Below, piece after piece: positions 1,403 to 61,904 of a DNA stretch of 64,000 nucleotides. Every line of letters starts with the position of its first letter. Positions within the stretch are counted from its first letter, which is position 1. The DNA is from Thermosynechococcus sp. NK55a (GTDB lineage Bacteria > Cyanobacteriota > Cyanobacteriia > Thermosynechococcales > Thermosynechococcaceae). Made by a program: the position numbers and the translations under genes. The stretch covers positions 930,001 through 994,000 of the forward strand of contig NC_023033.1 in NCBI RefSeq assembly GCF_000505665.1, written 5' to 3'. The notes under the pieces are model-generated. The model had not been told where the DNA came from, made no database searches, and worked only from the letters and a program-made list of their open reading frames with translations.

Positions 1403-1469
1403 CCTCAAAGATGGTATGTTCTTGCCTGAGGGAACAGGTGTGGGCTTCCGATGGCCAAAGCTCAATCCT

Positions 1470-1490
1470 TGTGAAAAAAGGCTGTATGAT
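1470..1490 (+). promoter_or_regulatory. psbE promoter element with -10 TATGAT
   Basis: A TATGAT -10-like hexamer at 1485-1490 is preceded directly by TGTGAAAAAAGGCTGTAT (1470-1487). The same 18 bases recur at 25072-25089 over the -10 box of the STAS gene. The predicted start of transcription is about 45 nt before the psbE GTG. There is no good -35 at normal spacing, which suggests activator dependence or recognition through the conserved block. This is inference from sequence only. Confidence 0.55.
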
Positions 1491-1541: not shown

Positions 1542-1796
1542 GTGGCTGGAACGACAGGAGAACGACCATTTTCCGACATTATTACCAGTGTCCGTTATTG
1601 GGTGATTCATAGCATCACCATTCCGGCGTTGTTCATTGCTGGCTGGCTCTTTGTCAGCACCGGTTTGGCCTATGATGTGTTTGGCACACCACGCCCCGAT
1701 AGCTACTATGCTCAGGAACAGCGGTCGATTCCTCTGGTGACCGATCGCTTTGAAGCCAAACAACAAGTCGAAACCTTCTTAGAAGAGTTGAAGTAG
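1542..1796 (+). CDS. psbE: Cytochrome b559 alpha subunit PsbE
   Basis: The 84-residue alpha subunit of photosystem II cytochrome b559 has one transmembrane helix (about 19-40). Histidine 23 in WVIHSIT is the axial haem ligand, paired with the histidine of PsbF. It is needed for PSII assembly and photoprotective electron flow in the thylakoid. The start is GTG, supported by GGAGG at 1528-1532, nine bases upstream. It is first in psbEFLJ, with 7 nt to psbF. In many cyanobacteria ycf48 and a rubredoxin gene precede it; here a kinase gene does. Confidence 0.98.
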
Positions 1797-24924: not shown

Positions 24925-25003
24925 TTATCGTCCTAAAAATTTCTCAACGGCTAGAGTTAAGCCTACTATGATTACTACGGCTTGTTACGCTCGCTCCACA
25001 AAA

Positions 25004-25078
25004 TTTCACAGAGCCCGCCATTTCTGGAGCGAAGTAAAGGGCGGTTATGTGTTTGCTCCCTTGCGAATCTCTGTGAAA
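25004..25078. repeat. 10-bp inverted repeat spanning the psaE/STAS divergent region
   Basis: TTTCACAGAG (25004-25013) and its exact complement CTCTGTGAAA (25069-25078) are separated by 55 bp. The right arm overlaps the conserved promoter block of the STAS gene. The arms contain TGTGA/TCACA, the half-site of CRP-type regulators, but the spacing is far too long for one dimer. Looping between two sites or an mRNA stem on one strand are possible roles. Confidence 0.5.
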
Positions 25079-25092
25079 AAAGGCTGTATACT
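25072..25092 (+). promoter_or_regulatory. STAS gene promoter with -10 TATACT and psbE-like block
   Basis: The 18-base block TGTGAAAAAAGGCTGTAT (25072-25089) is identical to that upstream of psbE. In both places its final TAT begins the -10 hexamer (TATACT 25087-25092 here). Transcription should start about 22 nt before the ATG. Confidence 0.55.
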
Positions 25093-25121: not shown

Positions 25122-25460
25122 ATGGCCAACACTGTCGAAGTGATCAAGCTGTCTGGGGTCTTTGGTGGTCCACAAGCTCAGGAATTTCGTCAAACCATTA
25201 GTGAGCTGGTTCAAGGGGGGACTAAAGCTCTATTGCTGGATTGTGGGAATGTTACCTTTATTGACAGTTCTGGCTTGGGTGCTCTTGTTGTGGCCCTGAA
25301 AACTGTCCGTGCAGGTGGGGGACAGCTTTACCTATGTAATATTCCCAAACAAATGATGATGCTCTTTGAACTCACGAGCATGGACAAGGTCTTTCAAATC
25401 CTCAAAGATGCGGAAGAATTCTTCTCATTGAAGCTACCTCCCCAACAGACCAGTAACTAG
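25122..25460 (+). CDS. STAS-domain anti-sigma factor antagonist
   Basis: A 112-residue single STAS domain of the SpoIIAA/RsbV type. The conserved VTFIDSSGLGALVVAL loop contains the candidate phospho-serine (49 or 50). Such proteins bind anti-sigma kinases in partner switching, releasing a sigma factor or other target. No cognate kinase or phosphatase lies adjacent. It is divergent from psaE and its promoter shares an 18-bp element with psbE. Confidence 0.9.
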   Translation: MANTVEVIKLSGVFGGPQAQEFRQTISELVQGGTKALLLDCGNVTFIDSSGLGALVVALKTVRAGGGQLYLCNIPKQMMMLFELTSMDKVFQILKDAEEFFSLKLPPQQTSN

Positions 25461-60937: not shown

Positions 60938-61121
60938 AGGTTTTTGTATTGCCAGCCTGCTACTCTTTCTGTATTGTACTGTCCGAACCGCGCTTTTCTG
61001 GGATAGGGGAGTGGGTTCCATTCTTAGTAACAAGGGCTGTACCACAATTTAGCCTGAATCCCTATAATCAGGGGTGAAGAATCATCCTGTTCTATTGTGC
61101 TGCTGCTGGAGCAAGAACCCC

Positions 61122-61904
61122 ATGAATGAGCTACGGGCTGCGCTGGAATTGGCGACAGAGGAGGAGTTGCAAGACCTAACAGAAATTCTGTTTCGTCGTC
61201 GGCTCAACCCCTTGGACTATCTAACCACGCCGGATCCCATTGCGGTACAAGCCCAAGATCGTCAAGCCTGGTTAGATGACATTGAAGAGCGGTTTCGCTT
61301 TTTGGCAGCCGATGGTTTGACGGTGCTCAAGGGCAAAGCCCAGCAAATCAGCTATCGGCAAACTTTGATGCGGGTCTGTCGCTACTTAAAAATTAAGTTT
61401 TCCCCCAGTTGGACGGTGCCTGAACTGGAAATGGAGATCTTCTTGAATGTGTTGCAGCGGATGTGGAAAAAGCTGGGGGATCAGGATCGGCGGGTTTTGG
61501 CCGCCCAAATTCAAGAGAGCTTGCCCGAATTGCGCCATGGCCACCCCATTTCCATGGAAATGGTGCGCTTAATCCTAGAGGGCAGTGCCGCGATCGCCAT
61601 CAGTTCTGTTGTGCGCTCCATGGTGGTGCAGCAGGTGGCACGGCAGTTTGCAATTCATTTTGCTGGCTCCAAGCTCTCAATGATCCCCTTGGTGTCACGG
61701 GGGGCAGCCATGGGAGCCGCTCGATTGGCAGTGGGGCGCAGTCTCTTGGCCTTTGCCAGTACTGCCCTGTGGGTATGGTTTATTGCCGATTTGGGTTGGC
61801 AAGCCATTTCCACTAACTATGCCCGCATTATTCCCACCATTTTTGCGATCGCCCAAATTCGTCTTTTGCGGGGTGAACAGGCCGCCCAGTGGGCGATGGC
61901 CTAG
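61122..61904 (+). CDS. YaaW-like (DUF3944/UPF0174) protein
   Basis: A 260-residue protein beginning MNELRAALELATEEELQDLTEILFRRRLNPLDYL, a helical N-terminal motif of YaaW-type proteins. Hydrophobic, Gly/Ala-rich segments follow in the C-terminal half (about 155-250). The function is unknown. ATG 61122 is preferred to the ORF start at 61074. Its stop shares CTAG with the stop of the convergent SNF2 gene. Confidence 0.72.
   Translation: MNELRAALELATEEELQDLTEILFRRRLNPLDYLTTPDPIAVQAQDRQAWLDDIEERFRFLAADGLTVLKGKAQQISYRQTLMRVCRYLKIKFSPSWTVPELEMEIFLNVLQRMWKKLGDQDRRVLAAQIQESLPELRHGHPISMEMVRLILEGSAAIAISSVVRSMVVQQVARQFAIHFAGSKLSMIPLVSRGAAMGAARLAVGRSLLAFASTALWVWFIADLGWQAISTNYARIIPTIFAIAQIRLLRGEQAAQWAMA

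Follow-up and report, generated by a model that had tools for sequence, protein, structure and literature searches.

The psbE and STAS promoters

Why should psbE and a STAS-domain gene, far apart in one 64-kb stretch of Thermosynechococcus DNA (the window, by which we mean the whole stretch analysed), be preceded by the same block of 18 bp? A sequence-only reading had described TGTGAAAAAAGGCTGTAT as identical at the two places, as running into the −10 hexamer at both and as a match unlikely to arise by chance, and had proposed a small regulon joining the two genes. In the whole window the block is indeed found exactly at 1470–1487 and 25072–25089, each time on the + strand, with its last TAT forming the first letters of −10-like hexamers (Table 1). 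Identity and common register thus both hold: each copy lies directly 5′ of its −10-like box, with the start codon 46–68 bp downstream of the block. Chance is also a poor explanation of the match, as 100 dinucleotide shuffles of the window contain no copy; when up to three mismatches are allowed the window still has these two sites alone, with a shuffle mean of 0.06.

Genome-wide (2,520,064 bases), the same tolerance retrieves five matches, the two exact copies and three with three mismatches, and within two mismatches TGTGAAAAAAGGCTGTAT is absent from the genome except at the psbE and STAS sites. The longer pattern AATCNNTGTRAAAAAAGGCTGTAWRNTAG, composed after inspection of the psbE, STAS and other sites, fits both places (shuffle mean 0.00 at up to three mismatches). 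A consensus −35 is absent at psbE and STAS, a simple sigma-70 scan finding no + strand pair in either region. Allowing up to three mismatches, the block precedes psbE in nine of 11 Thermosynechococcus genomes and the STAS gene in seven of 11.

Table 1. Features of the window that bear on the shared block
Feature	Position	Strand	Basis
psbE copy, putative right-end remnant of the repeat	1460–1484	+	full-element profile columns 78–102, reaching the last column
−10-like box TATGAT	1485–1490	+	sequence; contains the TA at which insertion presumably occurred
psbE, cytochrome b559 alpha subunit, GTG start	1542–1796	+	PF00284 (E 1.5e-22), PF00283 (E 1.4e-16)
STAS copy, putative shorter right-end remnant	25066–25086	+	profile columns 82–102, weak alone (E 1.8)
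−10-like box TATACT	25087–25092	+	sequence; kept in 8/8 aligned copies of relatives
STAS-domain gene	25122–25460	+	PF01740 (E 3.6e-18)
Third copy, both ends, internal deletion, about 54 bp	60987–61040	+	profile columns 43–102; sequence

Dispersal of related sites

Relaxed searches return many further sites in the same genome, where GAAAARGGCTGTAWNNTA has 98 matches at up to three mismatches versus 35 for a reversed control. At up to one mismatch the same pattern gives 8–21 matches in nine genomes of the genus (controls 0), none in genome G001, one in G008, and 0–3 in 18 other genomes of the order (controls 0–2). A 38-column profile, R1, built from 43 distinct sites with psbE and STAS included, finds 47 matches in the NK55a genome with an E cut-off of 10; with a cut-off of 0.03 there are 21–53 matches in each of nine of the 11 Thermosynechococcus genomes, none in G001, one in G008, and none or one in each of 18 further genomes of the order. 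The idea that the site is confined to a few co-regulated promoters is contradicted by the 98 relaxed-core and 47 profile matches in this genome. The distribution of the 12-mer GAAAARGGCTGT is similar, with 15–50 copies per genome in the nine genomes, one in G001 and none in G008 (reversed control 0–1). A scan of genome contigs that extended to other bacteria returned 15 stretches, of which the 14 outside Thermosynechococcus (12 in clostridial MAGs, one in Paenibacillus and one in an Alphaproteobacterium) were taken for chance matches.

One exact A6-type block lies before phosphoglucomutase (L031:1500–1533) in G008, a genome with hardly any other member of the family. In G001, eight reversed-control matches were obtained versus three real ones; seven of the eight lie on one strand, and these control matches suggest that another repeat is present in that genome.

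Position relative to genes

Forty-five of the 47 profile matches in the NK55a genome are intergenic (the coding fraction of the window is 0.85), and 26 lie within 150 bp of a start codon read in the same direction; the 47 are not all independent, because two elements contribute both of their ends. The next gene is co-directional for 34 of 45 ends (p 8e-4), and for 25 of the 32 that have no second end (p 0.002). Of the 26 ends no more than 150 bp from a co-directional start, 15 are followed by TANNNT, versus four of the 19 others (p 0.018), in matches to a profile that itself favours TANNNT; conservation of the −10 in R1, and in a table of 44 sites, is likewise partly imposed by the search pattern. 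Gene calls in this comparison come from a simple codon-usage gene finder, by which at least one gene beside a match was missed.

Across the genus, the 112 sites with up to one mismatch fall into 44 clusters of downstream sequence, six of which contain no gene by our ORF rule. A scan with family models, covering part of the 44, identified downstream of the sites dCTP deaminase, RibBA, a WecB/TagA/CpsF glycosyltransferase, pyruvate dehydrogenase E1 alpha, TrpA, PanC-CMK, a class II aldolase, ThiG, a Clp ATPase, a class I W/Y tRNA synthetase, ferredoxin-thioredoxin reductase and phosphoglucomutase. No common functional theme was seen among these scanned genes.

A MITE-like repeat with inverted ends

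Among the matches listed, at least 15 pairs of GAAAARGGCTGT are divergent and 81–92 bp apart. These pairs set back our working idea of a plain transcription-factor motif, which we have kept as a rival and weigh below. Pairing of ends in the retrieved loci gave 45 candidate elements, 40 of them above the end-similarity cut, and the 34 of 90–110 bp were used. These full copies, orthologous ones among them, yield one 102-bp consensus, ACAGCCCTTTTCTaaAatAtGGgaTacAcaAagGagAtgcaaTCCTcTCctatagtgGcTTTcacagTgtTgAGcGTGTTCcATCctTGtGAAAAGGGCTGT, with inverted ends; separately, 44 full matches collapse to 16 distinct insertions. The family thus has the hallmarks of a MITE in being short and bounded by terminal inverted repeats, with ends of the ACAGCCCTTTTCT ... 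AGAAAAGGGCTGT type, and in its many dispersed non-coding copies, as counted by the exact end 12-mers in nine genomes. At 102 bp it would be too short to encode a transposase. The two ends are unlike in their inner portions, and single sites accordingly fall into two sub-types, with CATCCTTGT or CATATTTTA 5′ of GAAAAGGG. The psbE and STAS blocks represent an A6GG variant that is one base longer than the consensus repeat end.

We built a terminal profile from nothing but the 34 full copies, a set without psbE and STAS, and applied it to 127,920 window positions on both strands. It ranks psbE first (score 30.1), the copy ending at 61040 second (24.6) and the STAS copy third (14.4), with the next independent place at 10.3; the best left end of the window belongs to that same third copy, at 60987 (19.6). 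The predicted gene at 61122, which starts 81 bp after this copy, matches no Pfam family. The profile of the full element scores weakly on psbE (E 0.12) and STAS, because only the terminal columns given in Table 1 match. In the retrieved loci, 178 matching rows, a series that counts overlapping loci and matches on both strands, form a gradation, with full copies at one extreme, short ends at the other and halves between them.

At psbE and STAS the right end alone is recognisable. A left end was not found at either place, the best candidates agreeing in seven of 12 letters at psbE and eight of 12 at STAS, values like those of random positions. With no left end recognisable, we infer that the two blocks descend from full elements, and from sequence similarity they are best regarded as probable remnants of the family rather than as members by structure. 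Rfam contains no family matching three loci that carry full copies. One full copy in the NK55a genome (L274, near 1494297–1494402), with ends pointing both ways, lies beside a WecB/TagA-type gene; its other neighbour has a gene start that we take to be that of psbD (D2 protein).

Probable insertion at TA

The promoter of a response-regulator gene in genome G003 contains a 68-bp copy that is missing in eight relatives, the presence/absence polymorphism characteristic of MITEs. Once the element and one TA are taken away, the G003 sequence is as long as that of G002, G004, G005, G006, G009 and G010; the empty sites of G000 and G007 are 4 nt shorter, and G001 and G008 are unalignable at this locus. 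At this one locus, comparison of the filled site with the empty ones suggests that insertion is likely to duplicate a TA target. Among the 16 distinct full insertions, T precedes the element in ten and A comes after it in 11; identity between the two flanks is hardly above that of shuffled pairings (at k = 3 alone, p 0.044), with no excess at 2 bp. A 4-bp target duplication, our first reading of the flanks, was abandoned, TA being the better fit at six of eight empty sites.

Promoters with and without the block

Among the nine genomes with a block at psbE, aligned without gaps from the −10, the invariant columns number none of 52 upstream, 19 of 28 in the block and 27 of 45 from the −10 onwards, the last figure being depressed by a 1-nt length change in the leader. 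The block-free psbE promoters, of G008 with TATGAT and of G001 with TATCAT, retain the leader, and their likeness to the block genomes starts at the G before that TA, which is the edge of the element. The eight aligned copies at the STAS gene all keep the −10-like box, and the block there is more variable than at psbE and has decayed in G009. At thiG, the block is present in G009 and G005 and, in diverged form, in G006, while eight block-free genomes keep TATNGT and have AACCCTGA 5′ of the −10. Thus at both psbE and thiG the block-free relatives keep the −10, next to unrelated upstream sequence. The net gain at thiG in G006 is only about 7 bp, so that this gene may instead have changed in place or undergone a short conversion.

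Origin of the shared block

We consider it probable that the shared block stems from a MITE-like repeat inserted at TA, of which it is the gene-proximal end, and that it was kept as the upstream half of a promoter. On this model a repeat of about 102 bp would spread within one Thermosynechococcus clade, presumably moved by a TA-specific transposase, and would enter at TA, including the TA of a −10 hexamer of the form TANNNT. Its right junction would re-form TANNNT at the −10, and the gene would therefore keep its −10 box, the spacer and −35 region being swapped for the end of the element, which would then contribute to promoter function. At psbE, the remainder of the element would have eroded or been deleted, with about 25 bp beside the −10 conserved. 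The STAS copy may have had the same history, on weaker evidence. In a more far-reaching version, the TA-targeting repeat, by repeatedly hitting −10 boxes, would have given dozens of core genes of one cyanobacterial clade, including one of photosystem II, a shared promoter half read by a single factor of that clade, and so created a genome-wide promoter class; we regard this as speculative and rather unlikely.

Several of the observations above would also be expected if a dedicated activator or alternative sigma factor reads TTCCATCCTTGTGAAAARGGCTG in place of a −35, within a large regulon built by selection, the repeat carrying or having acquired the same site. Single ends tend to face genes (25 of 32) at a fixed distance from TANNNT, the psbE block is conserved while its flanks are not, a consensus −35 is missing, thiG of G006 has acquired the block with a net change of only some 7 bp, and G008 has one isolated site. 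Against such a regulon, the similarity extends into a repeat of roughly 100 bp with a second, inverted end, two end types of different inner sequence serve genes alike, a filled site can be matched to an empty one with TA, and the downstream genes scanned are without a common theme. We judge it unlikely, and shared ancestry in the repeat appears, on the sequence comparisons, to account better for the identity of the block at psbE and STAS than a single dedicated regulator does. One factor may nevertheless read all of these ends. The smaller regulon of the sequence-only reading, in which the 18-mer would place psbE and the STAS gene under specific joint control, draws on the restriction of the exact 18-mer, within two mismatches, to these two promoters, and on its recurrence at the same genes in relatives. 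The non-chance match and the shared promoter register of that reading stand; its regulon is not supported: the block is a variant of the end of a dispersed repeat whose profile matches are nearly all intergenic, the search for it in the NK55a and related genomes places near variants upstream of many other genes, and the genes that follow such ends across the genus are of mixed function. We assign this possibility a probability close to nil.

Alternatively, the ends could be inert remnants, collected upstream of genes through a preference for TA in promoters, with the −10 and other sequences driving transcription. The −10 boxes of relatives that have no block, the lack of a −35 in the block itself, and the eight solo or full ends found in other settings, with 11 of 45 ends not facing the next gene, all agree with this. 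Conservation of the psbE block in nine genomes, against none of 52 invariant columns upstream of it, speaks against this, as does the orientation bias of single ends, and we hold inert remnants to be very unlikely.

Relation to known elements

Some cyanobacterial promoters have a −10 but no clear −35, and the psbE and STAS promoters resemble them in that the −10-like box is the sole part recognisable by consensus; they differ in that the region upstream is here conserved, probably because of its repeat ancestry. Cyanobacteria also harbour the MITE Nezha, a non-autonomous small repeat. The Thermosynechococcus family would be non-autonomous and small as well, a likeness at the level of description, and promoter-forming ends are not mentioned for Nezha in the accessible part of PMC10969869. 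A close parallel is provided by the Correia repeat enclosed elements (CREE) of Neisseria, which the accessible parts of two papers describe as non-coding inverted-repeat elements of about 100 bp, often 5′ of genes and with a TA target (PMC2649163, PMC10969869). According to the same parts, the gene-proximal Correia end carries a −35 and part of a −10 that is completed by insertion, often at TA, giving the 'Black promoter' (PMC2649163, PMC10969869). As far as these accounts go, the short inverted-repeat element, a probable TA target and a putative promoter at the junction of element and native sequence, at the −10, are shared by analogy, while sequence and host differ and Thermosynechococcus has many single eroded ends. 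In the Black promoter, as described there, the element brings the −35, whereas the + strand sigma-70 scan detected no −35 from the element end at psbE or STAS, and the −10 of the Thermosynechococcus ends seems to be native and restored.

A literature search that covered few subscription papers found no report of the Thermosynechococcus repeat, and the family may already be known; neither the accessible part of a thermophile transcription-factor census (PMC10775510) nor that of a cyanobacterial insertion-sequence study (PMC2246112) reports it. If our model is correct, parts of core-gene promoters in a thermophilic cyanobacterial genus, including that of psbE of photosystem II, would have been domesticated from the ends of transposons. 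The filled and the block-free promoters of closely related genomes would then constitute a natural experiment in which half of a promoter is swapped with the −10 intact, and exact matches between promoters of this genus would be a sign of repeat ancestry, not necessarily of a regulon.

Other features near the STAS gene

Just 5′ of the STAS block, 25020–25045 contains a weak left-end-like sequence (score 9.6) that may be due to chance. The psaE gene (PF02427) is divergent from the STAS gene, and upstream of it, at 24980–25012, lies a stretch of 31–33 bp that G001 and G008 share without any difference. A further copy of this stretch in G008 (L030), almost identical to the first, is not followed by psaE.
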